Assembly: GCA_950295325.1 (NCBI GenBank)
Contig: OX485806.1
Coordinates: 36,892,001 to 36,956,000, forward strand
Length of the DNA: 64,000 nt
Direction of reading: 5' to 3'
DNA from: Polytrichum commune
Lineage: Eukaryota; Streptophyta; Polytrichopsida; Polytrichales; Polytrichaceae
The position numbers and the translations under genes are program-made. Positions 28,464 to 64,000 of the stretch are shown in pieces (the stretch's first letter is position 1; every line of letters begins with the position of its first letter). A model generated the notes under the pieces. It ran no database searches. It was not told where the DNA came from and saw only the letters and a program-made list of their open reading frames with translations.

Positions 28464-28488
28464 ACTATATTCGGTATTTGGAGACTTT
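28464..28488 (+). repeat. Left terminal inverted repeat, giant copy 1
   Basis: Begins ACTATATTCG and ends GGAGACTTT. It is identical to the left end of copy 2 and 22/25 matched to the inverted right end. About 150 bp of nearly identical sequence follows in both copies. Confidence 0.92.
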
Positions 28489-28862
28489 TTGTTGATTATG
28501 AGACTATATAAGGATGCACATTTCAAAATTGGACCAGTAATGACGACTAAAAATCCCATATGTATAATGGTATGCTACTATTATTATACATAAAGGCATG
28601 GAAGTGAAAAAAAATGTGAGGCATACATGAAAATAGTTGCGTATGAAATGACAACTCGTTATGAATGGAAGGGAAGATGCGAAGAATGAATGGAAGTTGA
28701 ATGAGTTAATTGGGATAGAAATACAATTATAATGGAAATACCATCAATGTCTTGAGTAACTTGGAATAGCATAGAAAGTAAGCACTTAAATATGTTCTAC
28801 ACCTAAGCCCATTTAGGGAGCCCGTCCCACTAGTACGCTTCTAGTCACACTAGTCCGACCCA

Positions 28863-29171
28863 CTATTTTTTTTTTGCGGCTAAGTCCTTTTTTTGGGCGG
28901 CCTCCATGGCTCTAAAAATCTCAGGCCCACGACTGTATCCTTGTGTGTTGCCTGGAAAGGAATATGTGTCGTTCTTGCATGTTTCAGGACGCGCTCCCGA
29001 ATTGTACGAGGTGGTATTATAAGTAGAATACGAGGGTGTTTGCGAAAGGGAACGTCTTGCGCTTCTCCGGAGGGCCAGAGAACGATCGGACTTGGAAGAT
29101 GCAGCCTTGAGGGCGTGCCTATCCAAGGAGGAAGTCGAGGAGGGTTGGCCACCAAGCGAGCGGGTAGCCAC
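28863..29171 (-). CDS. Multidomain gene copy 1, last exon (F), Ser/Arg-rich tail
   Basis: This exon begins after the acceptor TTTTTGGCAG and ends at a stop after AAKKK. It encodes about 102 residues rich in Ser, Arg and Tyr (RRSARRSLSQTPSYSTYNTT), with a lysine-rich end (AAQKKDLAAKKK). The same exon in copy 2 (47970-48278) has exactly the same length of 309 nt and a conserved acceptor. That supports this reading frame over the overlapping one that is also open. No domain is recognised; the composition suggests a disordered, possibly nucleic-acid-binding tail. Its link to the upstream exons is inferred from splice sites and phase 0. Confidence 0.6.
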   Translation of the reverse strand: MATRSLGGQPSSTSSLDRHALKAASSKSDRSLALRRSARRSLSQTPSYSTYNTTSYNSGARPETCKNDTYSFPGNTQGYSRGPEIFRAMEAAQKKDLAAKKK

Positions 29172-29322
29172 CTGCCAAAAAACTCCATAGGAAGATAATA
29201 ATAAGAACGGAGTGGAGAAAATGAGGAAGGGCGGTTTGGGATGGGCGCTCGTAAACCTCTTGGCACGCACAGACAAAGAGGAAAGCAACGGTGAATATGG
29301 GTTTAGGGACAAAGAAGGGCAC

Positions 29323-29832
29323 CTTGGATTTGGTGACATCGATCCCGGGGACGATGGGGGCGTCGAGGAGAGCATACGAATCCGGTTGAATTGCGGCACT
29401 GTTCAGTAATGTGGGGGAAGCATGGCAAGGAGGGCCAACGACCGGGGATGGGTTTGCAGGAGGAGGAACGGGGACGACGGGGGAGGGGTCGCACCGGGTT
29501 GCTTCCAGGTGGAGACGTCGGCTCGGCCCACGACGAGCGATGGCGTCGTCCCTCGAGGGCGACACATGCCCCAAACGAACGAGCGTCCGCTTCTCCTTGG
29601 AGAGGGGGGAGGGCGACGGGGCGAACGCCCGAGGGACAACCCTGGGGGGCGGGCTGTTGACAACACTGTCGTCGACGTCCCGGGAGTAGTCCACGGCCGA
29701 GGCTGCATCCACCGCCGAGAAGTGGTAGAGTGAGGGGATCACGGAATACATCACGCCGCGGGAAGGGGAGCCTGGGGACGAGGGGGGACGGGAAAGGCCG
29801 TCGAGGACGGGGGCATCACATATGGGGGCAAA
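29323..29832 (-). CDS. Multidomain gene copy 1, exon E, Pro/Ser-rich linker
   Basis: The exon follows a pyrimidine-rich acceptor (TTCCCCATAG) and ends at AAG/GTGCCC. That donor is weak, but it is identically placed in copy 2. The frame is conserved between copies at both ends (APICDAPV near the start; SAVDAASAVDYSRDV; SPSPLSKEKRTLVRLGH; KSK or KAK at the end). At 510 nt it keeps phase 0 on both sides. It is Pro/Ser/Val-rich with no recognisable fold. The intron behind it holds a half palindrome (GCGCTCGTAAAC). Confidence 0.5.
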
Positions 29833-29993
29833 CTATGGGGAACAACAACAATAACAACAACAACACAGACAACAAAGACATCCAAAAACGGATGAAGCGT
29901 TAGATATGTGAACCAAATGATAACACGCACATACATGAAGATATTTCAAATGAGTTTATTAAATTTCGCGAGCCTCATGATGCTCTTGTATAC

Positions 29994-30713
29994 ATTATCG
30001 CGGGGGCTTAGTCCCGCATTGCCGATGGGGTTGGACCTAACAAAAAAGGGGATGCTACCGGCGTGGAGGACAAGCCTTCTAAGGTACGGCGCTAGCGTAT
30101 CGACCAAAAATGCGTCCTTCCTATCTCCGGTCCACGTGTCGGGAAAGATGACGTTGCCTGGGGGGTTCAAAACGCTCTTGGCGGGGCTGTCGTCGACCAG
30201 GAGGGTGTTCTCCGGAGTAGGCCACCACCCGTGGGGGGTCCCCTGAAGCCGGGGGACGCCGCGCCAAAGTCTGGACCTTAGGACCTTGAGGAACTGTTGC
30301 CCTCGGCCTCGGCCGCCGAACTTGGGAACCGGTAGACCCTTTTCGTCGAGTAGTTCATCGCAGTCCTCTTGCCCGAGGACAAGGCAAGGGCTCGGGAGAT
30401 CACGGAATAGGAAGTCGACGATGGGTTCCGTGTTCTCCATGACCATTGAGCTCCACACAATGACGTGGGCGAACTCGACAACCTCGCGAAGGAAGTCGCG
30501 CAAGCCGGGACGGGCGCGGACAGCCTTGCGGTTTATTAGGGTGTCGAGCTCGCCGTCATAGTCCCTTTCGTCGGGGTGACGGAAGGGACGCGTGGGGACC
30601 CTCGGGATGTGTTCGGTGTGACACAACACCCCGTTGAGGTCAAACACGATGAACGGCTTGTTTCGGGTCTGAGGTCCACTGGTGGAGGGGTTGCGACCTA
30701 TCTCCGGGGGGTC
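29994..30713 (-). CDS. Multidomain gene copy 1, exon D, FCP1/NIF-like HAD domain
   Basis: After the acceptor TTAATCACAG the exon encodes an FCP1/NIF-type haloacid-dehalogenase domain. It has FIVFDLNGVLCHTE at about residues 21-34, HVIVWSS at about 83-89, and LLVDDSPAK with NPPGNVIFP from about 171. Active FCP/SCP phosphatases use DxDxT. Here the motif is DLNGVL, so the second Asp is Asn and the Thr is Val, and phosphatase activity is doubtful. A putative donor (AAT/GTATAC) at 29993 allows joining to exon E in phase 0. Without it the frame runs on to a stop at 29946-29948. Copy 2 has the same 720-nt exon. The domain probably binds protein or acts on the transcription machinery, but that is inference. 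Confidence 0.8.
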
Positions 30714-31304
30714 CTGTGATTAACAATTCGACTAGTTTAATGCTATGATCCAATAAAGAATTTAGCAAACATGAAGATGCAGTATGGAAAAAGACGAAGG
30801 GCGAGAACAAGGGTACATTTGCGAACGATCGTTCGTGAAAGGCCAGCAGTGACCATGCGCACCATTCACGAACGTTCATTTGTGAATGAACCCTATAGTG
30901 CATTTACGAACGGGCGTTCGTGAAGGAGATGGTCGCGGGGTGGCATCCTTTTACGAGCGTCCGTTCGTGAACGAGGCATAAATGCACAACAGATTTGAAC
31001 CCGCATGAACATACACAAAACAACCAATGCGAGACGACGCGATTCGATGCAAAAAAATGTTTCATTTATATGAATTCCGTGAAAATTTACAATTTGTCTC
31101 AGATGATAATCTATCGTACAGGTTCCTAGGGCAACAAGATGCCATGTCCTACAAAACTGGTCGACCTGAGGAAGCACACAAAAATGGGCTATCGGAGGTC
31201 TCGGATGCCGATGTATACAACGCGCCAAAAACACAACGCATGTGGTTAGAGATGTTACGAACGCGCGTTCGTAAATGCATGCGGTAGTCTCAAAGATGAG
31301 TTAC
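30714..31304 (-). repeat. Intron C-D with five palindromes
   Basis: The intron begins GTAACTC and ends TTAATCACAG. Between them are palindromes of the ACGAACGNNCGTTCGT type at about 30821, 30867 (imperfect), 30905, 30954 (imperfect) and 31257. Copy 2 has four in the matching intron. Confidence 0.85.
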
Positions 31305-32747
31305 CTCGTCATCGGAGGGAGGGGCAGCGGCGCTGGATTGAGCGGCAGCTCCCTCCTCAGCGATTAACGAACGCGCGTTCGTCACATCCGCCGCCGCAGG
31401 TGCCTCAGTCTCCATTACGTCGTCAGCACGCGCCGCCTGAGACGTCTGGGTCTGCTGTATGTCGTCCTCCTCGCCACCCAGGTCGAGAGTCTCCATGTGC
31501 ACGTCCCCAATGCATGCGGGGGGATGTCGGTCTTCCGCAGGGCTGTCCTCGACGTCCATCCTCTGGACGCCTGCGGTGTCACTCGGGCTCCCCTGCGTGT
31601 CCTCCACAATGACCAAGTCAGTGTGTCGCGCAGTATCATCACCCCTTGTCCTATCTAGTAAACTGGGGACGACGGTGAAAGGTGCTGTGTCCGTCTGTGA
31701 AGGCAGTCCTACCCTTGGTGGGGGTGGGGTGAGGACTGTTGGACCTGAAGATTCACGAACGTGCGTTCGTAAATCCTCGTCCTCACGGATAGCCGCCGAG
31801 ATTGCGTCGTGTATGTTGGCGGTGTCCGTGGGCATTGTAGGGGGTGGAGGAGTCCCCACCGGCGTTGGGTGGGGCGCTGGCTGGTAGGAATGCCCTCCCG
31901 GGAAAGGACCGTGCATGGGGTATCCCGTAGGGAATGGGAATGCTGCCTGAGGGGCCACTGCAAAGTTCTGCAGCCTGGTCAGCATCGCCAGTATGGCGTC
32001 CGTCTTCTCGTTGGAGGACTTCAGCTCCTCCTCAATTTTTCTCATTTTCCGGGCATTCTCCTCTGCAGCCGCAGCCATGTCTTCCTTCATCTTCTGCTCG
32101 AGCTTTGCGTTAAGCTCGGCGACGGAAAGGGCCTCCTCCTTGACCCTCTTGTTCTTGTCGAACTCCACCCCAAGCTCGACCATAATGTCAATGTCCCCCT
32201 CGTCCTCGTCGGAGACCTCGATGATCGCCCCCTCGGGCAACTCCACGTACGGGGTCTTCTTCATCCTCCGTCGCGTGTTGCGGAACAGGTCCAACGTGGG
32301 ACGGGAGCGTTGGTCGAGGACATCGAGGGTCTCCATTTTCGGGACCGCCAGCCTTTGCTTGGGGGACACTGACGTCGAACAACCTCCTGGCGTGCCGAAG
32401 GGCTCCGCGCCTGAGGTAAGCGCGGGGAGGACATCCTGGGTGGCACCCGCCGAGGATCCAGTACATCCAGCCGGGGTCCCTTGGTATTCTGAAGGCTCCC
32501 CCGATGGGGCCAACAACCGGAGAGGAGTGACATCCAAAGCCTGGAGGATGGCATCGACGTTGACGGAGGGGCCAGGCTCGTCGTCGTCTGTTTCCATGGG
32601 CGGCATGCCTTCATCGGCCGGCATGTTGAAGTCCGTTCTGGGCACGGACATGTCAGCTAGGTCCATCGTCGACGCTTTTGTCCTGTGGAACTTGTAATCC
32701 TCCTCGTCGACGGCGTCAATATATGTGTTCACGCACAGCCCCAGCAT
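31305..32747 (-). CDS. Multidomain gene copy 1, exon C, acidic coiled-coil region
   Basis: The exon starts at the acceptor TTATCTCAG/ATGCTGGGG and ends GACGAG/GTAACTC, a canonical donor. Its first residues (MLGLCVNTYIDAVD) continue the methyltransferase-like motif that ends exon B. An acidic, Pro/Thr-rich stretch follows, then a conserved block (SVSPKQRLAVPKMETLDVLD, RRRMKKTPYVELP, EVSDEDEGD), and a likely coiled coil at about residues 199-262 (KEEALSVAELNAKLEQKMKE). The remainder is low-complexity, Pro- and Asp/Glu-rich. Two genomic palindromes fall inside the reading frame, at about 31364 (read NARS) and 31753 (read RTHVRES). Both are at the same places in copy 2. Exon length is 1443 nt; 1461 nt in copy 2. 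Confidence 0.75.
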
Positions 32748-32935
32748 CTGAGATAAGAAGGCAAAGATTCAGTCATTTACGAACGCGCGTTCGTAAACAT
32801 GAAGGCTTTGAGCGAGGAAATAATAAAAAAACAATTCACAAAACAATCATAAGTATCGGCTGCCCATGGTAAATTGTTTGGAGCATGCAGTGTTTACGAA
32901 CGAGCGTTCGTAAAAAGTGGTGTGAGATGGCTTAC
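32748..32935 (-). repeat. Intron B-C with one palindrome near each end
   Basis: GTAAGC donor and TTATCTCAG acceptor. One palindrome starts about 20 nt from the donor (ACGAACGAGCGTTCGT at 32895) and one lies about 30 nt from the acceptor (ACGAACGCGCGTTCGT at 32779). Copy 2 shows the same layout. Confidence 0.88.
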
Positions 32936-34261
32936 CATGGCCGCGTACATAAATTTGCTGCCTCCAAATACGTTGTAGACAGTCTCGCCAGTCATTGCCA
33001 AACCCTGCAATATGGAGACGTAGAACTCCATCCTCAGCTCCAGCGCCGGGAAGACAGTGTACAGAGTCTCCTGGAAGAGATCCTTTGGAGGTGGGTGAGG
33101 GATGCTGTATATCTTCTTGAATGTGTTGATCGCCTTTATGGGTGCTCGCCCATTCCTAAGCGCATTGTACGTCAAGAAGATGAGGCTCACCGCTCCCACC
33201 TGCCTGTTGCCTCTGGCCTCGTTTACGGCAACAATTCCCTCCGTCTTCGCTGGCACGTATGTGCTGTGGAAGATGTTGTACTCGAACTTGATCTTGTTCT
33301 CATACAAATCGATGACGACGGATTGCTTCTCCTGCTCCACAATCCACAGCCATACTTGGGGCTCCCTCATGGTCGGAGATTTGTGCTCCATGAATTTCGC
33401 CATGAAAGGGTTGTAAAAAGGCTCCCCCTTCGCGCCCTGTCGCGAGGCACCGGGTATCCCTCTGAAGTCGATGACCGCGAAGGGACAACCCCTTCGATCC
33501 TCCCTGACCTCGAACCTGCTGAAGGTGCCATCCCACTTGGAAAACGTGGTCCTCTCCAGCCCCGTGGTCACCACACAAAATCTTGCCACGCCCTCGAAGG
33601 TGGCGTTCCTCTTCCTCTCCAAGAAGGAGATGTACCGTTGAATCTCTTCAGGTTCCGTTTCTGTTTTTTTTGCTCTTTTGTTTCCCTTGAGCTTCAGGAC
33701 GGCGACGTGCTCCTTCACCAGGCTGCGCATTGAGGCACCGTTGATATTGTACAACGCCTTGAACTCCTTCCATTTCGCCCAGTTGATATCTTCGTCGGCC
33801 TGGAAAAGGTGCATCTCAGGCAATAGGCCGCTAATCTCCCGCATCGCAGCGGTCTTCAGCTTCCTGTGGTCGCACCACTCTTTGATCGAGTACGTGCCGG
33901 GCTTGTGCTTTGGTCTCTTCAAAAATATCTTGGGATAAGGGATGGTCCTTCCGACGGTGTTCCCAAGAACGTGAACCGCACATCGCTGCAGCTCTGATTC
34001 AGTCAGTCCTTGCAGGGCCCTAAAAAATTCCCGCAGTAGAGGCGGGGCCTCTCCGCTCTTCTCTTGAGCGTACTTCTCTTCTGTGTTTGGGTTCACCAGA
34101 TCGCCCGAGCTGTGAGCGTTGAAGAACTGGGTCCACAACTCCCAGGTGTCTCTGTTGCAGCAAATCAGACGGAGCTCACCTTTGAGCTCCAGAACTGATT
34201 TGGTGCTTGTGGACTTCATGTCGATGGAGGAGAATTTGTCCACCATCGCATCACAGAACGC
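32936..34261 (-). CDS. Multidomain gene copy 1, exon B, decayed N6/N4 methyltransferase-like
   Basis: The exon runs from the acceptor TATGTTGCAG to GCCATG/GTAAGC and encodes 442 residues. The C-terminal end GETVYNVFGGSKFMYAAM, joined to MLGLCV of exon C, resembles the SAM-binding D-x-F-x-G-x-G motif of permuted N6/N4 DNA methyltransferases. Upstream, PFAVIDFRGIPG (about residues 260-271), followed by VWLWIVEQE, sits where the catalytic DPPY-type motif would be. It reads DFRG instead, so catalysis is doubtful. No other fold is recognised in the N-terminal half, which carries a basic patch (KLKGNKRAKK). Copy 2 has an exon of identical 1326-nt length. The assignment rests on two short motifs and on the ParB-like neighbour, a combination common in bacterial phage-type methylases. 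Function remains unproven. Confidence 0.65.
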
Positions 34262-34384
34262 CTGCAACATACATACGAGGATGTCAGTGTTCAATACTAA
34301 ATACGAACGCGCGTTCGTAAGTTGGAAAATTTAGAAATTGTTTAATGCAACATATGCTTTACGAACGCTCGTTCGTAAACTCAC
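34262..34384 (-). repeat. Intron A-B with one palindrome near each end
   Basis: The donor GTGAGT is directly followed by TTTACGAACGAGCGTTCGTA (34359-34381), and a second palindrome (ACGAACGCGCGTTCGT at 34303) lies about 40 nt before the TTGCAG acceptor. Copy 2 has the same pair. Confidence 0.9.
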
Positions 34385-35680
34385 CTTCCACTGTGGAGAT
34401 TGCGTCTTGGCGTTCTCCTTCTCTTTTGGCGGGCATCCGTGCGCGACCCACACGTCTCTGGCCGCCACTATATTCGCCGCCCAGGAGGCCTCGAATGCCT
34501 TGATCTTGTTTCCGGAATTCAAAAATGTCGATATTTTGCGGAGCTTGTCCCAATCGTCAGACCAAACCAAAAACGCCTTCCAGTAGCGCAGGTCCGCCTT
34601 GAGCTCGTGCTGGAAGTTATCATCCTTTAGGATGATCTGTGACGCCTCTAGACTGTGTTGTCCATCGATTATCCAGAACTCTCCATTCTGGATTCTTGGC
34701 CAATCCTTCTCAGTGGGGCGTGACAAAAAACCCTTGGGCATCACGCAGACGGTCTGCCTATCCCACTTCACGTTGTTCATGAGGTTATTAATCTGCCACT
34801 TCACCCCTCCGCTTTCACGAGACCTCACCACCCACTTGTTAGGAGATTTCTCGCACTTGAAACAATCCACGTTGAAAGTGAAGTGGCGTCCCATAGGCCA
34901 GCAATCCTTGGAGTAGTTGTTGAAGTCTCGAAGGATTTTTGTCGCTTTGGCAGCGTCTGGGTTTTCTCCCTTCTTCAAAGGGGTTGGCATCACTGGCGGA
35001 GAACTAACCTCAGCGCCTTCCGTCAATCCGGACTTCTCCATCTCGTCCCTCGACCTCTTGGATGGAGTGGATTGTCTGCTGGGCCCTTCTGTCAACCTGC
35101 TCCCCGAAGGCACAGGCCGCGGAGCACTTCTCGATCCTCCTGCCCCCGAAGCAGCTGGTTTTTTCGGACTTTTCTTTTTTTTATTTGCCTCCGCGGCAAC
35201 ACTGTTGTACTTCGAAACATTCAAGGTCAGGGCAGTCAACTTCCTCGCCGTCCAGTGTTGACTCAGGGCATATTTGGTGAAGAGAGCATCCAGATTGAAA
35301 TGTTTCGCATCGGATGCGACATTATTGCATGCATAAGCATAAGAGAATGGGTGCAATAGGTAGTTTAAGAGGAGGTTCACATGGTCTTTTTTATTTTTCA
35401 TATCCAGAATAACAAAGTCTCCTTGTGCCTCTACGGATTCTATCTCCCAATTCTTTGTCTGCACCCATTGGTCTGGTTGGTCAGCCCTTGTCTGCAGCTC
35501 ATAAGTGAATTGCAATGCAAACAACCCTTCCTCGGTCTTCGTGGGGATGGTCGTCCACTCAGCCATGAATTCTTCTTTTGGGACATAGTTGTCGTTCCCA
35601 TTGGTATCCGAGACGCCCTCTGGAAGGCGCTCCACTGGCACTGCGAACAAGTCGATGGCGTTTCTGCTAGCTTTAGCCAT
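34385..35680 (-). CDS. Multidomain gene copy 1, exon A, ParB-like (DGQHS) domain
   Basis: The exon begins ATGGCTAAAGC straight after a GTGATGCAG acceptor, so the ATG may be the start codon preceded by an untranslated exon. It ends TGGAAG/GTGAGT, a textbook donor. It encodes 432 residues: a globular N-terminal region (1-160), a basic linker with a nuclear-localisation-like KKKKSPKKP (about 167-175) and Ser/Pro-rich sequence, and from about 255 a ParB/DGQHR-like domain. Its core is EFWIIDGQHSLEASQII (about 334-350), preceded by a conserved SPNKWVVRSRESGG. ParB-like domains bind DNA or hydrolyse nucleotides, and DGQHR proteins occur in phage and DNA-modification systems. Copy 2 has the same 1296-nt exon, and a relic is readable at 12.47-12.71 kb. 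Confidence 0.75.
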
Positions 35681-35699
35681 CTGCATCACACAAGAGCAA

Positions 35700-36200
35700 A
35701 TCAGAATTGCTTTTACGAACGTTCGTTCGTAAACAACACCGTGCCATGCATATTATTTTCATAGTGTGGTTTTTGGAAATACGAAGTTTTGAATGCTTTA
35801 TGCATTTCAGGGTGTTTCTAATGCATTCACATTGGTTCACATCTTTCACGAACGCGCGTTCGTAATATGAGATACCTGTTTATTAGTATTTTGTACATAA
35901 CTATACGAACGCGCGTTCGTAAAGTCATGCGATATTGTGGAACCTACTGAGTTAAATTTAGTGTTGTGATTGGATTTAAGTACTTATATGAATTACAGCA
36001 TGGATATATCCCTCCATTTTGGATTTAGAGTTTCGAACGCACGTTCGTAAACGTAGTCCTTGGGTTCCAAAGAATCTTTACGAACGCGCGTTCGTGAAAT
36101 GGTATATATTTTGCGCGGCCTATGCATTTACGAACGCGCATTCGTAAATGGGTGTATATTGTGCGCGGTAGAGGTATTTACGAACGCTCGTTCATAAATG
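35700..36200. repeat. Palindrome array 5' of the multidomain gene, copy 1
   Basis: Seven palindromes of the ACGAACGNNCGTTCGT type lie at about 35715, 35849, 35906, 36034, 36078, 36131 and 36181, with variable AT-rich spacers. The array lies between the exon A acceptor and the GC-rich leader at 36.9-37.1 kb, so it is probably inside a first intron. Confidence 0.88.
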
Positions 36201-36250
36201 AGCTTGTTGTTTGTTTTTATATATATAATTAATAATAACAATATAGTGTC

Positions 36251-36312
36251 CGTACATATACGAATTCGTATATATACGAATTCGTATATATATGAATTCG
36301 TATACATACGTA
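36251..36312. repeat. AT-rich palindrome triplet TATACGAATTCGTATA
   Basis: Three copies of the palindrome ATACGAATTCGTAT (one with ATG for ACG) stand next to the main array. At the matching place copy 2 has a TATACGTATACGTATA-type palindrome cluster (55568-55612). The class differs in sequence from the main palindrome but sits at a conserved site. Confidence 0.8.
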
Positions 36313-36894
36313 TGGCAAGGTCTTGCTTGCTGTGTCTCAGCAAAGCTTGCACTTGTGCCTGCAAGTGTTCGTCAGAAAGGTGAGATTGAAGAAAAACAAT
36401 ACAATCAAAACATATAGACTTGGAATGTGACAGAGAATTCAGAACGAGGATCCGAACTTGACTTCCAAAACACATGGCATTCAATAATGAACAAATATAG
36501 ACTGTGAAGGATTTGAGAAGGGAAGGAATATTGTGCTTACTCTGAAATTTTACACACCCAAAAGCTGCTTGCTCCTTTGTTGAAAACCCCAGGAAACCCC
36601 ACAAAAGCAAGGTGATTTGAAAGTCAAATGCACCACTGCACCACTGAAATTGCCTTCACACTAGTTGTTGCATGCTATGTACGAACCCTAACTAAGACTC
36701 TGATGTATATGCAATTTCAAATGCAGTATTTCTCAAGCTGCTACTCTAAAACTTGCAATTATCAAGCTTATAGCTTGAGTATCCTAATCTTAAGCTTCCA
36801 ACTCTCAAGCTTTAAACTCTACAAACTTTCAACTCTCCAACTTTCAACTCTTCTAACTCGAGTTCTCTATTCTTGAGCTGCAACTCTCAAGGGA

Positions 36895-37215
36895 CTGTCA
36901 ATAACTCTCAACACTTGCGCCTACAAAAGAAGTGCACCACACAAAACTAAAAAATGCAAGAGCTTCGCCTCTAAACTCTAAACCAACGCGGCGCTCCTCC
37001 TCTCTCTGCTCCAAATGAGAATGAGGAAGGAGAGGAGGGGGCGCGGGGAGGTAGCCCGCGCCTCTAGGGTTTTCCCTCGGGCTGCCACATGGCCGCTTCC
37101 CATTGGGGAGGGAAGGGATGGGTCGGGCTAGGAAGATGAGGGGATGGGATGGGGAGATAGCATGGGGTGTGGGATGGGTGGATGGGGGGGATGGGGGGGA
37201 TGGGTTGGAATTCAT
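36895..37215 (-). promoter_or_regulatory. Putative leader/promoter of the multidomain gene, copy 1
   Basis: A GC-rich island in AT-rich DNA contains, on the minus strand, AAACCCTAGAGG, a telo-box-like motif typical of plant leaders, and a Pro-coding GGGGAT-type low-complexity block upstream. Copy 2 has the matching island (56270-56500) with AAACCCTAG and a G-box core CCACGTGG where copy 1 has CCACATGG. The position suggests transcription start for the minus-strand gene. The Pro-rich ORF through it is likely non-coding. Confidence 0.4.
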
Positions 37216-37365
37216 TGGGGTTTAGTAATTCAATGTAATCAAAGCACATAAATATATTCAATGTGACTTAATAAAGTGATTTGCATGGGGGGCACTAACC
37301 GATTTGACATAAATCTATGTCATCACAATAAGAAATGCAACTATATATTACACCATTTGCACTTA

Positions 37366-37905: not shown

Positions 37906-38246
37906 AAATAAATGCAAATGATTTAATATGTGGTTCAAATTCTTATTCGGATGAGATGTATTTGTGCCAAATTGGTTAGTGTTGCCCATACAAATCGCTT
38001 TATTGTGTCACATTGAATGTATTCTTGTGTTTTACTTGTTCTTTATTTGAATACCATGTTCTGAAATAGTATCCAAAATCATGAAAATGTCCCCAATTAC
38101 AGAATATGGTGATCGTTGAAAGTTTGGCTCGCATCAAATGTAAGCTACAAATAAATTAAGTTAGTGCAATATGGATTTATGAGTAGTGAATATAGTTTGT
38201 ATGTAAACCCTGTTATATGAACTACTGGACATGCACATCCCTCACA

Positions 38247-38832: not shown

Positions 38833-38867
<35 letters not shown>

Positions 38868-45958: not shown

Positions 45959-45993
<35 letters not shown>

Positions 45994-48955: not shown

Positions 48956-48963
48956 CTATGGTC

Positions 48964-54786: not shown

Positions 54787-54814
54787 CTGCAATGTAACAG
54801 ACACATTCAGAATT

Positions 54815-55530: not shown

Positions 55531-55562
55531 GTAAATGTGGTCGTCTGTGTATGATAATAAAT

Positions 55563-55612
55563 GCTTTCCGTATATATACGTATACGTATACATACGTATA
55601 CGTATGTATGGG
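55563..55612. repeat. AT-rich palindrome cluster, copy 2
   Basis: TATACGTATACGTATA and neighbours stand where copy 1 has its TATACGAATTCGTATA triplet. Confidence 0.8.
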
Positions 55613-56029
55613 TTTATGAATGTTGCTATCGACATTGCTTGGATTTCTGCCTGCAACTCTTGATCAGAATGATGAAACACAAAGTGAAATATGTAATGAC
55701 AACAACATTGAGATTCAGTGATTAAGAATTCATAATGAAGGGGAAAGTCCTAATTCATACAAAACATGACAAAGCTCATAATGCATAAAACATGACACAT
55801 GGAATTCAACAAAGAACAATTTCAGATTGCAAAGAAGTGTTTTGAAAAGGAAACCTGTACTCACATTGAATTGTTGCAAACCCAAAACCTGCTGCCTGCT
55901 ACTCAGAAATCCAGAAACCTCACAAATGCATTGATTTCGCTTTCAAATGCAATTTCTACCCTCGCTCATTTCTCACACTCTCAAGCCTTCAGAATTTATT
56001 TACAAATCCTACAAATATTCTGATGTAAA

Positions 56030-56230
56030 CACAACTCACAAGCTTTCTGAAACTCTCAAGCTCTCAAGCTTTTTGCAACACTCAACCTCTCAAGCTTTCT
56101 AAAACTCTAAACCTCTCAAGCTTTCCAAAACTCTAAACCTCTCAAGCTTTCCAAAACTCTCAACCTTCTCAAGATTTCTACAAATATCAACCTCTCAAGC
56201 GATCCTACTCTCAAGTTTCTGACAATGCGC
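56030..56230. repeat. CTCTCAAGCTTTC(C/T)NAAA degenerate tandem repeat
   Basis: Units of about 25 bp such as CCTCTCAAGCTTTCCAAAAC recur five or more times. Copy 1 has a looser relative at 36760-36890. Confidence 0.8.
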
Positions 56231-56264
56231 GCCAAGAATAAACATAAAATGCGGCTATACAAAT

Positions 56265-56500
56265 GGCCAGGGCTTCGCCACACCTAAGCTCTCCCCTCCT
56301 CCTCTGCTCCAAATGACAAATGAGGAGAGGAAGAGGCGCGGGGAGGTAGCCGGCACCGCTAGGGTTTCCTGGCGGCTGCCACGTGGCTGACAGCCACTGG
56401 CCAGGGCTGGGATGGGGGAGGGGATGGGGATGCGGATGGGGATGGGGATGGGGATGGATGGGAGGGGAATGGGGATAGGGAGGGATGAGGGTTTACGAAT
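56265..56500 (-). promoter_or_regulatory. Putative leader/promoter of the multidomain gene, copy 2
   Basis: A GC-rich island with AAACCCTAG on the minus strand, a G-box core (GCCACGTGGC at about 56377), and upstream GGGGAT repeats. It is equivalent to 36895-37215 in copy 1. Assigned by position and motif only. Confidence 0.4.
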
Positions 56501-56639
56501 TAAGAAATACGAAATGGTGGGAGCTTAGTTCGGGGACATGAATTTTACATTCCGTATCCCCTGAATACCTCTACAGTTGGATTCCTTGTAAACATATTTT
56601 AGAAAAGTATGTTCAGTTAATTTGTACAACACAATGCAT

Positions 56640-56870
56640 GTCATTTAGTAGGTTTTCGATGAAGAATCCACCCCAATGTGTGTATGGTGTTTTGCAAAAT
56701 AGAGTTTTCATGAACCACACATCCTTAAAGTTGTTCAATGGTTCCTCAGACAAATTTTACATACATAAAGGACGCATTTTGAATTGTGGAGAGGGGCTAT
56801 CAGATTCTCCTCAAGAGGTGGGGGAAAATTCATTTTTCAATACGATGTCATTAATTTCATGAGGTGTTAG
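56640..56870. repeat. ~230-bp block repeated at 57728-57955 and in copy 1 at 37610-37830
   Basis: Shared order: CGATGAA(G/A)AATCCACC or equivalent, GTGTGTATGGTGTTTT, TTCAATGGTTCCT, then AAGAGGTGGGGGAAAATTCA. Copy 2 has two versions flanking the Harbinger-like MITE region, and copy 1 has one. Confidence 0.7.
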
Positions 56871-56935
56871 CTTGACCCACCCTTAATATGATATTTAGTA
56901 TTAGATACTCTAAATACGAACGCATAGTACACTAA

Positions 56936-57462
56936 GGGCCTGTTTAGACTTGGGGCCAAGGCCATTGTGAACGAAGGCCAATATGCCCCATGTGGCATGC
57001 AAATGGGCCCCAAAGGCCATTAATAAGAAAGTAACCTAACTCCATTCATTGCTTTCATGTGTAAACCTATTTAGGTGGGGTTGGGGCCATTTGGAGGTTG
57101 CAATTATGAGAGGGTTATGAGAGGTTCCAACGTACTCATGAACTATTCTATGGATAATAATTAAAGTATAATAAATTTAGAATTTCTCCCCTCCTACTCA
57201 ATGCTCAAAGAATAAACTACTATAAGCGAATAAAAGCTCTAACAATGGCCTCAACAAGAGGGAAAAAGTCCACAATGTTGGGAGCTCTCTTTTCCAAGGC
57301 TTGAGGCCATTGTCATGATGAATAAAATAATTTATTTGTGATTGGCCCCAACTCATGGTGTAAACTTGAAGAGGAAAATCCTAGCCTTTCTACCAATGAG
57401 AGGCGTGGATTTCTTTCACCCCAACCCATTTTTGAGCCTTGACTCCAAGTCTAAACCCGTCC
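56936..57462. mobile_element. PIF/Harbinger-like MITE (527 bp) with TAA TSD
   Basis: The left end GGGCCTGTTTAGACTTGGGG and the inverted right end GGACGGGTTTAGACTTGGAG are matched over about 30 bp. The flanks are TAA on both sides (56933-56935, 57463-57465). The GGGCCTGTTT start and three-base TAA target are typical of Tourist/Harbinger MITEs. It has no coding capacity and is absent from copy 1. Confidence 0.9.
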
Positions 57463-57727
57463 TAAGTATCACTAACGATCTAAACCCTAAGCCCGCAAAC
57501 CACATATTAGACAACTTTCACAAACCATATACACTAACCCCAAACCCCAAACCCTAACCCTACATCTTTTTATCTTACCAACCCTTTTTAGGAGGTCAAG
57601 TCATTTAATTAGTTGTCGACTTGAACTAACAAACGAATACTAGTGCCATCAACTTTAAATTTCACCAATGATCAATTGCATTTAAACTTATAGTTCATAA
57701 TATGGTCCGATGTTTGGCGAGCCTCAA

Positions 57728-57955
57728 GTGTAGGGGGTGGATTCAAATGAAAAATCCACCCGCAAGCATGTGTATATGGTGTTTTAAAATATAATTTTTT
57801 CATGGACAATATGTCTTTCAAGGTGTTCAATGGTTCCTTAAAAAAAATTATTGGATAAAGGACTCAATTTCATATTGTGGCGAGCCTGCGCTATCCTAAA
57901 CCTTTACAAAAGGTGGAGGAAATTCTATTTCTCATAGGACGTCAAACACATGATA
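57728..57955. repeat. Second version of the ~230-bp block
   Basis: GTGTATATGGTGTTTTAAAA, GTTCAATGGTTCCTTAAAA and AAAGGTGGAGGAAATTCTAT follow the order of 56640-56870. Confidence 0.7.
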
Positions 57956-58644
57956 TTAATAATTGTAAGTGTGACTTCACGTAGGCATGGTTTCAATTCT
58001 TATCATTATCGTATGCACCGTTCCAAAGTGATTTATCATTTCCAATCATGCCATTTTAATTCATTATTTTCAAACCTAGTGTTACATTTGAATGAAGACC
58101 TTACCTACATATATTGGGTATGATTACTTCAAAATGTCCTCAATTTACCTAGTACAAACCATTATGGATTAAGCGACTTTTTATTGGTATTCATGCAGTT
58201 GGTGACCATATTACGGGCATTTTTTTTATGTGAATCATATGATACCTACAATTTTAGGGGCTTCCACAACATGTTTTTAGCTACTCTTACCTCATTGTGT
58301 GTGTGAATATGTATTACCCTAAACCCTTCATCACTTTATTAGGTATAATCAATCGTCAATTAACTTGGACTTCACACCTTAGTTGCAAATCATTTAAATT
58401 CAATGTTAACCATAAACCTATATAGACATTATAAATCTAATATTATATATATGTGTATATATAATATAATATAATATAATATACAATATGAAATTCATAT
58501 ATACATATAAATATAGACATATATTCACATGAGACCTTGGTGACAATTAAGGTGTGCGACCGATTGACATATTTACAATATGTTGCGTGCATGCAAGACA
58601 TGTTCCATACATAATGCTATTTATTTATTCCGCATGGATGGAAT

Positions 58645-58895
58645 GGCATATTGTTAGGTCAAAGTAGGCGGCGGGAATCCGCTTTTTAAATAGCATCCAA
58701 GGGATTTTGAACCATCAGGGGGGAGGTACTTAAAGCTCTTCCCCCCACATCAGAGCTCTTTTCTGCGGCACAACCAAGTGTGCGCTCCACAGACCTGACT
58801 GGAACGAGCACAAACCATTTTCTTGTGCGCCCACCCTATACCTCCCAGGTACACAATAGGTTGCACATACCCGCATATACCGCCGCAAATACCGG
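58645..58895 (+). promoter_or_regulatory. Conserved block upstream of the transposase, copy 2
   Basis: Closely matches 39040-39278 of copy 1 while the surrounding AT-rich centre diverges, which suggests functional constraint. Assigned as promoter and leader by position. Confidence 0.5.
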
Positions 58896-60440
58896 ACTTT
58901 TACGAACGCACGTTCGTAAAGATGATTTGGTAGCGACATGTGATGCGAGTGGTTTAGACATGTAGTTTAGACGAGTGGTATAGACGAGTGGTTCAGACAT
59001 GTGATGCGAGTGGTTTACGAACGTGCGTTCGTAAGTAGAGCATTAGACATACCCAGCGTAGATTTACTTACAGGTAGTCACAGGCACAAAATGTTCAATT
59101 ATATACGAACGTGCGTTCGTATATATTTCCTTCCAGATACAGGTACACGTAAGTTGTTGTGATGCGAGTGGTTTACGAACGTGCGTTCGTAAGTAGAGCA
59201 TTGGACATACTCAGCGTAGATTTACTTACAGGTAGTCATAGGCATGAAAATGTTCAATTATATACGAACGTGCGTTCGTATATATTTCCTTCCAGATACA
59301 GGCGCACGTAAGTTGTTGTGATGCGAGTGGTTTACGAACGTGCGTTTGTAAGTAGAGCATTGGACATACTCAGCGTAGATTTACTTACAGGTAGTCATAG
59401 GCATGAAAATGTTCAATTATATACGAACGTGCGTTCGTATATATTTCCTTCCAGATACAGGTGCACGTAAGTTGTTGTGATGCGAGTGGTTTACGAACGT
59501 GCGTTCGTAAGTAGAGCATTGGACATACTCAGCGTAGATTTACTTACAGGTAGTCATAGGCATGAAAATGTTCAATTATATACGAACGTGCGTTCGTATA
59601 TATTTCCTTCCAGATACAGGCGCACGTAAGTTGTTGTGATGCGAGTGGTTTACGAACGTGCGTTCGTAAGTAGAGCATTCGATAATACTCCACGTTGACC
59701 TACTTATAGGTAGTCGTGGACGCTAAAATGTTCAATGATATACGAACGTGCGTTCGTTTATTTTCCTCCTAACCCTCAAAGACACCTACGCTCCCGTGAC
59801 TCTGTTATGTCCAACTGAACATATGATGGTCTGGTATTCACGAACGTGCGTTCATAAATATCAATTGATATTATTTTGCAATTATACAGAAACATCCGTT
59901 CATTTATGCATATGCCTCCTACTACTACGCTATAAATGTTTCTTCTGATGGGTCAACATTTTTACAAACACGGTTAGGGCTAGAACACATGATTGATCGT
60001 TCGTATGCATACGCCCATATGTTTCGGCCAGGACTTACGAACGATCGTTCGTATACATATACCCTTGAGTTTAGGCTCTACCTTGGGTTCGGTCGTTCCT
60101 AGATACACACCCGTCAAAGACATGCCCTTCAATTACGATGCTTGTTGCATGTGGATAATGATGCAAGTGCATTTTAGGTGCTCCTGAGCAATGCACGTTG
60201 CTTATCCCTTTTACAATTCATTGTTTGTTGGGTTGATGTTCTCGTCCGCGCGTTCGTGAATATATGTGCGTATGCTCTCCTTTGTTGGTTGGCAACACTT
60301 CCCATGCTTTATTAGCAAATCGACCCAAAACCCTTCACGGTTAATATGTACCACAATTGCATGCCGTTGTCCATTGGTGTGTGACTCCCACGTAGTATTT
60401 GCTTGTCATGGCGTTGTTTTCGAACGCACGTTCGTCTTCA
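58896..60440. repeat. Palindrome array 5' of the transposase gene, copy 2
   Basis: About sixteen palindromes between 58901 and 60433, including the ~159-bp tandem array. Most have the ACGAACGTGCGTTCGT core; two at about 60000 and 60040 carry GATC centres. Confidence 0.9.
59013..59765. repeat. ~159-bp tandem array, two palindromes per unit
   Basis: GTTTACGAACGTGCGTTCGT starts at 59013, 59171, 59330, 59489 and 59648. Each unit also holds a second palindrome in ATATACGAACGTGCG context about 90 bp on, and the phrases GTAGAGCATT(G/A)GACATAC and TTCCTTCCAGATACAGG. About 4.7 units are present. Confidence 0.95.
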
Positions 60441-60578
60441 TATGTGAGGTCCCCCAACGGTGCCGCGAGAGTTGTTTGTGTTTTTTTAGCCATATATCTA
60501 CACAGCTCTCGTTTTCGCTTTTGTGTGCATTGCGGTGCTTCTTGTTTTGGTCATTGATTAGTGGTTTGCTTAGGTTGG

Positions 60579-62055
60579 ATGGCGCTGCCCGTGGCATATA
60601 GTTCATTGGAGTTGTCCACAATTTCTTCCTCCTTCAATGGTGAGTGTGAACTTTCTTCCCCTTCGGCGGGTTGTAATGGTCTGCCAAACGTGATGGGGGA
60701 GTTTGTGGATACATCCTCCCATGAATCTTTAGAAGTGCACGAACAATCTCTACATTCCAGGGATGACCACAATGACATTCCGTTGTGTGCCGGTTTCGGG
60801 AGGGAGCAATGGGTTGGCCTTGATGTCGTCCTACTCAACGACATTGGTGTCCCTGTGGCAGATGGCATATGTAGAAACTCTGATCCCCGTGATTGTGTGG
60901 ATGCCAACCCCCTTGGTCCGAACGATGTTGGTGTGTGCATCTTGAATTCATTGCTTCCGCTTGAGGTCCCGGTGACATGGAGATTTTCCTTGCGTCGATG
61001 GCCTTTTTGTCGGGTTCTCCATGACGGAGTGAGCTTGTTGGACCATGAGCGGCGCCATAAGCAAACACAATTAGCTTTGTTGGCCAAAATACGTCCTCGC
61101 AAAGGCCTACGCAAATATGATTCGAACCGTGTGCCTCGAGAAGATAAGGAGCGTCGACGGGATCGCATATTGGGAGACGAATCTATCCGTCTTGTGTCCG
61201 CCAAAGACTGTTGCTATCGGAAATGTTGCCAGTTTTTCCCACGGGAGAAAATTAAGTCCCTACGTCAAGAGATGTGGCTGGCCGATTTCCGTATGAGATC
61301 GGCAAATAAACTCGAGGTCCATAGAAATGTGCACATTGACACCCATGGGCATAAGGTGGTCACACTTGAGAATGTGGATGTGTGTTGTACCGCGTGGTAT
61401 ACCATCCATGCCGTGTCAAAGGCTGACTTTTATAGGTTTCAAAAGTATTCATCGTTGGGTCGCCGCTCACGATTTCATGGAAATTCGGGCACAAAGAAAC
61501 CTCGGGAGGCTACACTCCAAGCCTCCGCGACACTCTCCACCATCATAGTCTCATTGGCCGATGCAATGCCCCACAAGACGAGGACATTGTCGTCAGGGGA
61601 GAAAGTTGTACAAATGGTGTTGCCCACAGGTACAAAATGGAAGAACATATTAACGGACATTAACGAAGTGGGTCGCATAGCGGGATGTGGTCCCATTTCT
61701 TTGTTCAAGTTGAGTGTAATTAAAAACCAACAGTTTGCTGAATACATTTTGAAGAGACCTGGGGACAAGTTCGCTAGGTGTACGACGTGTGAAAAATACA
61801 AAGGTCTTCGAGACGCCCACCCCATAGGCACCGAATCCCACTCCAGACACCAAGCAAAATATATTGAACATGTCAACAACCAAGAGGCTCACCGTCAAGA
61901 TTACTACAAGAACCGTGCTCTATCCATAATGAGGCCTACAGAGGTTCTAACAATCATCCATGACAAAATGGACCACGCCAAGACCGCATGCCCTTGTTAT
62001 GCACGGAAAATAAAGGCCACGGATGGACTCTTCAAGTTGCCCGTAGCTGTCACAG
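60579..62055 (+). CDS. DUF7869-like transposase, copy 2, exon 1
   Basis: The ATG at 60579 lies just after a TTGCTTAG acceptor-like site and aligns with the copy 1 start. The exon is open for 1477 nt and ends GTCACAG/GTTTGT within a Gly codon. It encodes residues 1-493: an acidic N-terminus, a basic region (KIRPRKGLRKYDSNR, KDKERRRDR), cysteine-rich CCYRKCCQFFPREK at about 211-224, VDVCCTAWYTIHAVSKADFY at about 267-285, CTTCEKYK at 401-408, and DKMDHAKTACP at about 462-472 with the probable first catalytic Asp. Exon 1 plus exon 2 give 998 residues with no break, so this copy could make a full-length protein. Confidence 0.87.
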
Positions 62056-62194
62056 GTTTGTAGGAAATCACAAATATGTGTTCAAATTCTATCCAATTTT
62101 ACTAGATGTGTTTGCGTTAGGTTTCAACTTCACACATCCGTTTAGGGTTGTTGTTGTTATTGTTGTCATTCATGGATCGTTTGTTTTTTCCCAG

Positions 62195-63714
62195 GGATGA
62201 TTGCCCACGGACATGGAGACGTTAAGTATGCCCATTATGGTCTGGATTTTTACCCTGGCGATGCTAACCACACGGTGGGATCATTTGCAAAACTCTTGCG
62301 CGATTTTGAAAAGCCACCGGTACATTCATCACGTGCATTGTTTGATGGTTGTGGAACGACACCCCTTTACGAAGCACTGCTTGCGGGGAAAGAGGTTTGT
62401 ATGTTGTCATTGCCGGAGCCACCCGGAGAACCTCTTTGTGCGAAACCTTTGCCTCCAACTCTCCACGTTCAACTTGATAATTGTGCGAAGGACAACAAAT
62501 GTCGATATGTATTTTGTTTTTGGTCCTTGCTTGTGGCGAAAGGAATCTTCAAGGAGGTGTTTGTGTCTTTCTTGATGGTGGGACACACACACGATGACAT
62601 TGATGCGTCTTTCGGACGGTGGAGCATGAAGTTGCATGAAGAAGATTTTCCAACCATACCACTTCTTATGAAATCGTATATGGATTTGGATCATATGCCG
62701 GTAATTCCGCACATGATTGAGGAAGTACCAGATTTCAAGGCCTTCATCAAGCCATACATGTTGAAGGGAGGGGACCGTTTGGTGGGACATACCAAAGCAC
62801 AACAATTCCGATTCTTTATAAGGGATGATGGTCTCCCGGCCATGCAATTTAAGCTTTTGTGCACATCTCCTAATTGGGGCCCGGATGATGGTATACTCGT
62901 ATGGCGTCAAGACAATGATGGGAAATGTTTGCTCCCGGATGGGGATCCAAAGCCTTGCAAACCCGACCCCATGAGGAATGGGCCGGAAATCATCAAAGGC
63001 ATATCCGGATTCATTGAATATTGGAAAGAGTTGTGTGAGGAGGACATCACTAGACGTGTTAGAGATACTCATGAACCTTTGATTGCGTATTGGGATCGCA
63101 TTCGCTCGGCCCTAATGACACTTGGTGGCGACACCCGTACAACTTTAACACAAGGATTTTGGCCACAAAGCCGTTTAACGGTTGTCGAGTCCGACACCAT
63201 GTTTTTTAGCAATGGAGACGTTCGTGAAGAGTTCGCAATGGACGAGCATTACGTTGGCCCTGCCCGAGATCGACCGGCACCGTCGTTTCGTGTAGGTGTT
63301 GATTGCCATGAAGGTTATTTGGTCCTCGTACGAGCAGGGGATGAGGAGCATCCCAAGCCAATTTGGTTGGTGAAAGCATTGTCTTCACCCAATTTTGTTC
63401 GAACTAGCCCCAACTTTCGTCAAATTGAGGTGGAATATTGTCGTCCAAGCACTAAAGACCAAAACGTGCTACGCACTTATTTAGGTTGGGACACCAAAAA
63501 GAATTTTAAGTGGACAGTGGACTCAGCGTACACACCGGTTTGGATAAACACAGATACTATACTTTGTGCTTGGAAGCCGCGCAAAGGTTCCAAAACAGAA
63601 ACAATGACCATCCCCCAAAAACATATAGATTTTGCCAAAGACAACTTGGCACGTATTGCAGCTGCGGTGAATGACGCCGAGAATGGATATGAAGCGGAAG
63701 ATGGAGATGTGTAA
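62195..63714 (+). CDS. DUF7869-like transposase, copy 2, exon 2 (catalytic core)
   Basis: It begins after the acceptor TTTTTTCCCAG. The intron 62056-62194 has no palindrome. The core motifs are MIAHGHGDVKYAHYGLD (from about residue 494), LHVQLDNCAKDNKCRY (Asp at about 587) and VGHTHDDIDASFGRWS (about 621-636). These resemble the D...DN...HTHxDID pattern of DUF7869 proteins, which I take to be DDE-type transposases. The C-terminal 370 residues are conserved with copy 1 but unassigned. The frame is open to a TAA at 63712. Confidence 0.87.
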
Positions 63715-64000
63715 ACATAACATATTAGGTGGGAGTTAATGGCGAAAAACATGGGCGCTTAGTAGACTTGGTTTTTATTAGACTTAGTGGACTTGTCACA
63801 CTCCATTGTTGTATACGTTTGGGATGTGCCATCCAAATTCATAAGAGCCTTACTTATGGGATGCGCACCCCAAATTCTATAATGACATAAACCAATTGTT
63901 TTTTCAGAGTTGATTGTTATTTTCCACAAAGAGCTCACGTTTTCATTTTAATTGAAATTCTCTATTTTTAGTAATAAGAATATGCTTTACGTGCGAAATT
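63715..64000. other. 3' flank of the transposase within giant copy 2
   Basis: It aligns with 44405-44690 of copy 1 (TACGTTTGGGATGTGCCAT, TAATGACATAA, TATTTTTAGTAAT). The right terminal repeat is expected beyond the window. Confidence 0.7.

Follow-up and report, generated by a model that had tools for sequence, protein, structure and literature searches.

This locus raises the question of what kind of element joins a DUF7869-like gene to a second, long gene on the opposite strand, and what that companion gene could be for. The window, a stretch of 64,000 nucleotides of Polytrichum commune DNA (contig OX485806.1), had been read in an earlier note as holding two same-orientation copies of a giant TIR transposon. 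The two copies do share the same left terminus, and comparison of the printed ends of copy 1 recovers its right terminus as the inverted left one at 22 of 25 positions. The true ends lie 3 bp outside those given in the earlier note (AACACTATATTCG, the family TIR termini; AATACTATATTCG at the left of copy 1), and the right end of copy 2 (L030) falls 120 bp past the window edge. The elements and their target duplications (TSDs) are:

28461..44800, plus strand: copy 1, full TIR element of 16,340 bp with A-type palindromes; TIRs AATACTATATTCG/CGAATATAGTGTT, flanking TSD AAAT
28457..28460, unstranded: left TSD of copy 1, AAAT, 4 bp
44801..44804, unstranded: right TSD of copy 1, AAAT, 4 bp
47569..64000 in the window (ends at 64120), plus strand: copy 2, full TIR element of 16,552 bp; TSD CTTT/CTTT
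47565..47568, unstranded: left TSD of copy 2, CTTT
12408..15445, plus strand: decayed third copy, retaining pieces of companion exons as well as palindrome remnants, four in number (13639-14814)

Many copies with the same ends, a constant TSD and empty sites had been named as what would confirm such a transposon. Searching the 408-Mb host genome for the TIR pattern with at most one mismatch gave 2,644 termini (1312+1332), against 28 control matches (14+14) for the pattern read backwards. The inverted termini coincide with the insertion boundaries in the 18 elements cut at both ends, and an identical 4-bp duplication flanks 16 of them, being imperfect in the pair L003/L004 and in E7.5 (ctta/cttg). 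One sister insertion provides an empty site, its joined flanks being uninterrupted at 40 places (40 of the 108 candidates scored), and all four aligned loci were gapless. The autonomous copies sampled contain two divergent genes, one for the DUF7869 protein and one for the companion (exons A-D). Among the matches listed, 47 of 83 DUF7869 matches have a divergent exon A match beside them, mostly about 7 kb away, against a rough chance mean of 0.5. The TIRs, the 4-bp TSDs, the empty site and this linkage thus support the giant TIR transposon. The exon A copies scored number 187 or more (90 A-type, 97 G-type); as many of them are stop-free and equal-score sets reach up to nine, this giant TIR family of a land plant appears to be abundant and recently active.

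The plus-strand gene was located in both copies:

40269..42745, plus strand: transposase exon part T1 of copy 1, in two blocks (40269-41513, 42488-42745), from tblastn with copy 2
42869..44404, plus strand: transposase exon T2 of copy 1, with DUF7869 (Pfam E 1.7e-39)
60558..62060, plus strand: transposase exon T1 of copy 2
62146..63714, plus strand: open frame holding exon T2 and DUF7869 of copy 2 (Pfam E 9.9e-40)

DUF7869 (PF25273) scores 136 bits in both copies against a curated cut-off of 26, which bears out the DUF7869-like gene first proposed by eye, and we infer that its product is the catalytic enzyme moving the element. No significant sequence relative of the transposase was found among PDB sequences, and the AlphaFold2 model of the candidate DDE transposase is of very low confidence (pLDDT 28.5). 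The two structure predictions obtained in all were both low, with pLDDT 30 and about 28.

The companion gene runs on the minus strand:

34385..35680, minus strand: exon A of copy 1, 432 aa, bounded by the splice sites CAG|ATG and AAG|GTGAGT; ParB-like box, seen by eye, GEFWIIDGQHSLEA
32936..34261, minus strand: exon B of copy 1, 442 aa, with a methyltransferase-like motif at its C-terminal end (by eye only)
31305..32747, minus strand: exon C of copy 1, about 485 aa, end by eye, donor GAG|GTAACT
29946..30713, minus strand: exon D of copy 1, 255 aa, NIF/FCP1-type domain with DLNG motif (Pfam NIF E 8.2e-16)
28883..29829, minus strand: conserved tail coding region of copy 1, same protein or third gene (tblastn, tblastx)
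53491..54786, minus strand: exon A of copy 2
52049..53374, minus strand: exon B of copy 2
50421..51881, minus strand: exon C of copy 2
49092..49859, minus strand: exon D of copy 2 (NIF/FCP1-like)
47990..48955, minus strand: conserved tail coding region of copy 2

Exons A-D join in phase into about 1.6 kaa, the C/D junction being placed by eye. The long minus-strand gene of the earlier note is real, and its ~1.9 kaa would be possible with the tail. Both genes are under purifying selection (dN/dS 0.06-0.26), and the values of exons A and B, in comparisons with unsaturated dS, are 0.06-0.15. As to domains, the FCP1-like label holds (Pfam NIF in exon D, 58.5 bits against a cut-off of 21.8), while the ParB-like and methyltransferase-like labels stand at motif level only. 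NIF is the sole Pfam match over cut-off in the companion, exons A, B and C having none. The best E value of exons A and B in Pfam, NCBIfam, PHROGs, PADLOC and PDB sequences was 0.04, exon C is acidic with a coiled-coil match below cut-off, and no DNA-binding domain was identified in the companion. The NIF/FCP1 catalytic motif is DxDx. Exon D reads DLNG in its place in the five of five sequences printed, and this residue pattern makes phosphatase activity doubtful.

A key feature absent from the earlier note is a palindrome of 22 bp with four CpG, TTTACGAACGNNCGTTCGTAAA (A-type), present 24-37 times per element, chiefly in upstream regions and introns. Its exact matches number 4,680 genome-wide against 0 for the control. 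In the window, the stretch over which its restriction to these elements was assessed, 65 sites occur at up to two mismatches against 0.08 expected, none of them in the first 28 kb or between the copies. Their main groups are:

35715..36195, unstranded: A-type cluster upstream of the companion gene, copy 1
39284..40128, unstranded: A-type cluster upstream of the transposase gene, copy 1
32779..34376, unstranded: palindromes just inside introns A/B (34303, 34361) and B/C (32779, 32896), copy 1
54821..55532, unstranded: copy 2 palindromes preceding the companion gene, some of them in a 42-bp tandem array
58902..60435, unstranded: copy 2 palindromes preceding the transposase gene, some of them in a 159-bp tandem array

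With the tail region taken as non-coding, five two-gene elements of the A-type have 137 of their 158 sites outside the exons (A-D and T1-T2), which make up 44-50% of these elements; four of the G-type have 68 of 70 outside (exons 36-43%). The G-type elements are a separate family whose TIRs are almost the same and whose palindrome is TTTACGGACGNNCGTCCGTAAA in place of TTTACGAACGNNCGTTCGTAAA, one base being different per half-site. In both families the intron palindromes adjoin splice sites and are mostly of the family's own motif. Own-type sites number 15-40 per element in 11 of the 12 elements cut out and nine in E7.5.

Motif type matches family in all sampled elements (5/5 A-type, 4/4 G-type). 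On C1 up to 36.96 Mb, among the matches listed, G sites are near 5/5 G-type and 0/6 A-type exon A; four of those five lie at most 0.2 kb from G sites, and the remaining one is 6 kb beyond the final site in the list. Against a clean switch, G-type elements contain 0-4 A-type sites each and A-type elements 0-1 G-type. Identity between the families falls from 83-86% in T2 through 77-79% in T1, 60-63% in D and 53-55% in B to 43-46% in A. Only one motif switch was seen and, since the transposase divides between the families just as the companion does, phylogeny alone does not assign the motif to the companion.

The way in which the sites decay was also examined, at up to 6 mismatches (0-6) for the old copy and the flanking control and at 1-3 for the elements. 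CpG transitions make up 14/14 mismatches in the palindrome remnants of the old third copy, and 16/17 and 36/44 in two non-autonomous elements; the flanking control gave 14/54. Non-autonomous elements of 9.5 and 7.1 kb, which hold gene fragments only, keep 40 and 36 sites. Imperfect sites of the nine two-gene elements gave 49/128 (range 1/6 to 6/9). In the 28.5 kb including the old copy, 6 palindrome remnants were found against 6.25 expected from shuffled sequence. As this is no excess, it is their place and mutation type that argue for the old-copy remnants.

We favour, at a probability of roughly 55%, a reading in which a palindrome-binding companion makes up a sequence-specific anti-silencing system, similar to VANDAL/VANC and built from other proteins. 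The DUF7869 transposase would move the element via its TIRs, generating the 4-bp target duplications. Acting as a symmetric complex, the companion would bind the palindrome of its own element, occupying many copies of it in introns and in front of the genes. Transcription of the element would thereby be maintained, most likely because CpG methylation and silent chromatin are kept away or removed. Binding, demethylation and the anti-silencing effect are all proposed here from sequence. More speculatively, and with less than even odds, a large protein, perhaps a derived, catalytically dead ParB-methyltransferase-like module fused to the NIF-type domain, might have turned into a palindrome-specific anti-silencing factor, and family-wide re-spelling of one base per half-site might split daughter families and their non-autonomous parasites into self-recognition groups.

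The palindromes could also be operators, the companion being a transcription factor or repressor that sets both genes and has no role in chromatin silencing. Site clusters upstream of both genes and in introns agree with this, a dimer fits the symmetric site, and exon D is of the NIF/FCP1 type, a family that acts on RNA polymerase II. However, the number of sites, their tandem growth and their retention in fragment-only non-autonomous elements exceed the needs of a promoter, and the four CpG per palindrome, with the decay by CpG transition seen in the old copy and in two non-autonomous ones, also count against it; we consider this explanation unlikely. En/Spm elements carry subterminal TnpA sites, and the palindromes might likewise be transposase or accessory sites for assembly of the transposition complex. 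They are present in 12/12 elements cut out, non-autonomous ones included, and in the 9.5-kb non-autonomous element each terminal kilobase contains one (939 and 8646 of 9,491). Yet the terminal 1 kb on either side is free of them in all nine two-gene elements sampled (for one of them, E20, about 260 bp of the right end is outside the sequence examined), and the palindrome differs between families despite near-same termini and an 83-86% identical transposase, which leaves this role quite improbable.

That the companion is an active enzyme of the prokaryotic ParB-methyltransferase type, marking its own palindromes, is suggested by the ParB-like box of exon A, by the B/C junction ETVYNVFGGTKF..AA..LGL..N..VDA.DEDEY, which by eye follows the methyltransferase motif I-II order, and by the hhalign register of both motifs with phage ParB-methyltransferase fusions. 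The ParB-box alignment is weak (18 columns, E 0.0037, probability 9%), although better than both mismatched controls (E 0.029 and 0.19). For the methyltransferase motif the pairing (E 0.092, 0.6%) falls short of a mismatched control, in which exon A was aligned with the methyltransferase part of the phage proteins (E 0.029). Probabilities of 0.6-9% come with no library match, including no profile match to the amino DNA methyltransferases (N6_N4_Mtase); the phage DPPY is not visible by eye, and GSG is replaced by GSK or GTK. We thus hold such an enzyme to be very unlikely. Least credence goes to RNA-level elements (intron hairpins) or satellite by-products that bind no protein: several introns do have sites beside their splice junctions, and the sites multiply by tandem repetition, but they are also dense in upstream regions and in nearly non-coding non-autonomous elements, and the motif difference between families is consistent.

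Should the anti-silencing reading be right, transposons that are not related to each other would have evolved sequence-specific anti-silencing on at least two occasions, using proteins that also appear unrelated; it would then count as a general strategy rather than an Arabidopsis oddity. The same reading would suggest a function to seek in DUF7869 transposons elsewhere. Self-recognition, if true, would be a previously undescribed transposon self-defence in an early land plant lineage. The two motif families in one genome, with exon A 43-46% identical, are a natural specificity swap.

Among known systems, fungal KDZ, Plavaka and other transposons pair a transposase with a TET/JBP dioxygenase thought to counter methylation-based silencing, according to the available part of PMC12730594. 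The present family would resemble them, as far as that part describes them, in combining a transposase with a protein that may counter silencing; profile searches found no TET/JBP match in its proteins. Its TSD is 4 bp, versus 8 bp in Zisupton and 2-3 bp in Plavaka in the same text, and KDZ/Zisupton membership, defined there by an 8-bp TSD, was rejected on this ground (PMC12730594). The CMCT clade (EnSpm/CACTA, Mirage, Chapaev, Transib) is similar in having CAC...GTG near the ends and a TSD within 2-5 bp. The termini differ, being AACAC...GTGTT here. When T1 and T2 were read by eye, the clade's C(2)C and H(3-4)H motifs were not seen in the interval from second D to last E, as placed by putative catalytic residues; T1 does contain a C(2)C, upstream of T2. 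A 4-bp TSD characterizes the Sola1/Sola2 superfamily, which our family resembles in this trait. In phage ParB-methyltransferase fusions, as in the companion, a ParB-like box comes before methyltransferase motif I (by eye and in the hhalign register); unlike them, the companion is fused to acidic and NIF-like parts and has no significant similarity to them.

VANDAL elements are Mutator-like, whereas the transposase here is DUF7869. Compared with VANC as described, the companion differs in its NIF domain, with no other Pfam match over cut-off. In Arabidopsis VANDAL/VANC, the element encodes an anti-silencing protein and its motif occurs in introns, upstream and intergenic DNA (available parts of PMC5735166 and PMC10398659). 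That motif is directional and 9 bases long, against a 22-bp palindrome with four CpG here. As far as those texts go, both systems share a second protein, a short repeated non-coding motif, growth by tandem repeats, and related families with different motifs and diverged proteins.

The new and surprising part of this element is a palindrome system, together with the switch of its motif between two element families. The window was located at C4:36892001-36956000 of the 408-Mb assembly, and an AP2 domain in the flanking sequence is indicative of a land plant. Elsewhere in the assembly, the small contig C22 has rRNA genes surrounding a 5.8S match (18S and 28S portions recognised by eye), and C5 has a further 5.8S match; C22 could derive from a different organism. 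Besides the two same-orientation copies, each with a plus-strand DUF7869 gene and a minus-strand companion gene, it holds a decayed third copy and several other repeats:

6336-6563 and 19888-20115: inverted repeat pair of 228 nt, 87% complementary, 13 kb apart, flanking the decayed third copy
12.4-15.4 kb: decayed relative of the element
22811-23308: DDE_1 (pogo/Tigger-type) transposase fragment, Pfam E 2.9e-13
23147-23983: sequence found again at 74-89% in E18_37.22, a G-type element; probably another inserted repeat
24619-25241: open frames FSDGCAAQFEG... (no Pfam match) and HGKGKHDGAG..., another transposase in appearance, by eye
28461-44800: copy 1, complete, 16,340 bp, 4-bp target site duplication (TSD) AAAT
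45858-46777: tandem repeat between the two copies, strongly C-skewed, units CCCCGTCCG/CCGTTCC
47569-64120: copy 2, complete, 16,552 bp, its last 120 bp outside the window, TSD CTTT

The earlier note had read the two copies, with their common terminus, DUF7869 gene and long minus-strand gene, as a giant transposon with terminal inverted repeats. The observation is confirmed and the reading is right, given the inverted termini, a constant 4-bp TSD and an empty site. The terminus pattern has 2,644 matches genome-wide (≤1 mismatch), against 28 for the same pattern read backwards. Both ends were inspected in 18 elements. In 16 of them the two 4-bp flanks agree and the first bases are AACACTATATTCG, or AATACTATATTCG at one end of copy 1; the pair L003/L004 and a 7.5-kb element (ctta/cttg) do not fit. 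A TTAA-type target site was rejected, TAA being present at the first three ends and not constant among further ends, and KDZ membership is disfavoured by TSD length.

Evidence from empty sites, which the earlier note had named as confirmation, comes from a single insertion, the element L007/L008, which lies in an inverted-repeat element itself repeated in the genome. Its flanks, joined with one TSD copy, matched 40 genomic places when 40 of 108 candidates were scored, 152-154 of the 154 bases aligning with 98-99% identity, and there was no gap at the joined site in four of four aligned empty loci. Because the joined flanks occur uninterrupted elsewhere, both ends and the TSD are fixed for this insertion, and the termini coincide with its boundary.

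T1 and T2 are the two main exons of the plus-strand gene, and DUF7869 lies in T2. The product is a putative transposase, perhaps a DDE enzyme. At two loci, C1:53130853 and C3:53140342, DUF7869 lies in a 1,049-aa open frame, although T1 and T2 are split in other copies; some copies may lack the intron between them or read through it. The minus-strand companion comprises exons A (432 aa), B (442 aa), C (~485 aa) and D (255 aa). Joining was attempted in seven copies. In five of them, copies 1 and 2 included, the exons run in phase across splice-site-like sequences, with an early stop in exon C of one of the five (E19); in the other two the start of exon C was not located. A further coding region at the tail, which may belong to the companion or to a third gene, is kept between families, as is the stop at the end of exon D. 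Within-family dN/dS lies at 0.06-0.15 in exons A and B, leaving aside one exon A comparison with saturated dS; exon C gives 0.22-0.26 and exon D 0.09-0.19. By these ratios the companion is a functional gene and no mere passenger.

The linkage of the two genes, on which the earlier note depended, also holds. At least 47 of the 83 listed T2 matches have a divergent exon A partner, most ~7 kb off, against a rough chance expectation of ~0.5 that uses partly guessed sequence sizes. The count is a lower bound because the lists hold the best 90 of 1,087 exon A and the best 83 of 1,859 T2 candidates. The T2 match at C1:53130853, scored as unpaired, turned out once excised to carry an exon A split in two. 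On the companion side (7.4 kb) copies 1 and 2 are 78% identical, and in their transposase exons 83-86%. Between them dS varies along the element: ~1.5 for exons A and B, against 0.43-0.50 for T2 and D. A stretch of ~300 bp close to the left end reaches 98% identity. This unevenness suggests either a swap of the central companion module or homogenised ends.

The companion had been described as ParB-like, methyltransferase-like and FCP1-like. The last label stands, exon D being of NIF/FCP1 type. For exons A, B and C no family passed the cut-off in Pfam, NCBIfam, PHROGs or PADLOC; below it, exon C matched HAUS-augmin3 (E 0.0027) and one member matched YEATS (E 0.04). PDB sequence searches gave no relative (best E 0.11). 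None was found for exon A or T2 in viral contigs or for exon A in prokaryote genomes, nor by tblastn with exon A pieces (against phages and plasmids) or with a B/C piece (against phages). AlphaFold2 gave no usable model of exon A or the DUF7869 region from 2-3 window sequences. By eye, exon A contains GEFWIIDGQHSLEA, which is ParB/DGQH-like, and the B/C junction bears a run resembling methyltransferase motif I; a catalytic DPPY is not visible. In hhalign comparisons with five phage ParB-methyltransferase fusions, both fell in register. The ParB box (E 0.0037, probability 9%) beat both mismatched controls (E 0.029 and 0.19), whereas the methyltransferase motif (E 0.092, probability 0.6%) was weaker than a mismatched control (E 0.029), and at whole length the ParB box alone was recovered, at 1% probability. 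From these scores, the ParB-like label for exon A is suggestive and the methyltransferase label is without support beyond the eye.

The palindrome TTTACGAACGNNCGTTCGTAAA, which the earlier note does not mention, occurs at 65 sites in the window (≤2 mismatches, 16-bp core; 0.08 expected), with none across the first 28.4 kb. Genome-wide there are 4,680 exact 18-mers, against 0 for the backwards-read pattern. The sites are grouped upstream of both genes, partly as 42-bp and 159-bp tandem arrays, and also lie just within introns, adjoining splice sites. We sampled nine two-gene elements, two from the window and seven from the first termini listed on contig C1, eight of them cut end to end and one (E20) lacking ~260 bp of its right end. 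Of their own-type sites (≤1 mismatch, tail region scored as non-coding), 205 of 228 lie outside exons A-D and T1-T2 (137 of 158 in A-type and 68 of 70 in G-type elements). The central two bases are TG, CG or CA at 43 of the 65 window sites; this could reflect a pyrimidine-purine step at the centre of symmetry, or else a fifth CpG undergoing decay.

Other elements, 17-20 kb long and with termini almost identical to those above, bear TTTACGGACGNNCGTCCGTAAA instead, one base being altered per half-site. Motif type fits family in all nine sampled elements (five A form, four G form), with 0-4 stray A-type sites per G-type element and 0-1 G-type per A-type. E18_57.01 is A-type at 18 kb, therefore length does not divide the families. 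The non-A pattern has 1,383 sites genome-wide (control, 38), and all 50 distinct non-A sites among the matches listed are G. On C1 up to 36.96 Mb, G sites accompany all five of the G-type exon A copies listed (no more than 0.2 kb away for four; the fifth is 6 kb beyond the last listed G site) and none of the six A-type copies listed; one of the six G clusters is without a listed exon A. Identity between families is 83-86% in T2, 77-79% in T1, 60-63% in D, 53-55% in B and 43-46% in A. The evidence comes from a single switch, and the transposase divides into the same two groups as the companion.

As end-binding sites of the transposase the palindromes are disfavoured, since in the nine two-gene elements the outermost kilobase at either end is free of them; against this, a 9.5-kb non-autonomous element has one site <1 kb from each end. 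That element (C1:639031-648600) and another of 7.1 kb consist of little beyond terminal repeats, A palindrome arrays (units of ~160 bp in the former) and gene fragments, from T1 and D, and they carry 40 and 36 sites respectively. Such retention points to a role of the sites in cis. The decayed relative has four palindrome remnants, a number not above that in shuffled sequence, in which 14 of 14 mismatches are C-to-T or G-to-A at CpG. The share of such transitions is 16 of 17 and 36 of 44 in the two non-autonomous elements, 49 of 128 in the nine two-gene elements (from 1/6 in E16_25.75 to 6/9 in copy 1) and 14 of 54 in a flanking control, the scan allowing 0-6 mismatches in the old copy and control and 1-3 in the elements. 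This pattern suggests that the palindromes of silent copies were formerly CpG-methylated.

No such moss or plant transposon, nor bryophyte anti-silencing like it, was found among the listed titles and abstract openings of open-licence literature, and 'DUF7869' was not found in the open-licence papers searched. The closest comparison is with the Arabidopsis transposons VANDAL21 and VANDAL6 and their anti-silencing proteins VANC21 and VANC6. PMC5735166 and PMC10398659 describe motif-dense non-coding DNA, tandem growth and motif change with protein change, and binding and methylation loss are demonstrated there. Our element resembles those transposons in the motif density of its non-coding DNA, in tandem growth and in a motif that changes with the protein. 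The main rival is plain transcriptional control through the palindromes instead of anti-silencing. We prefer sequence-specific anti-silencing because of the VANDAL/VANC-like pattern and the retention of sites in non-autonomous copies, and consider it the most likely role, with a probability of roughly 0.55. The companion system would be like VANC in its mode of working, though not necessarily in identity.
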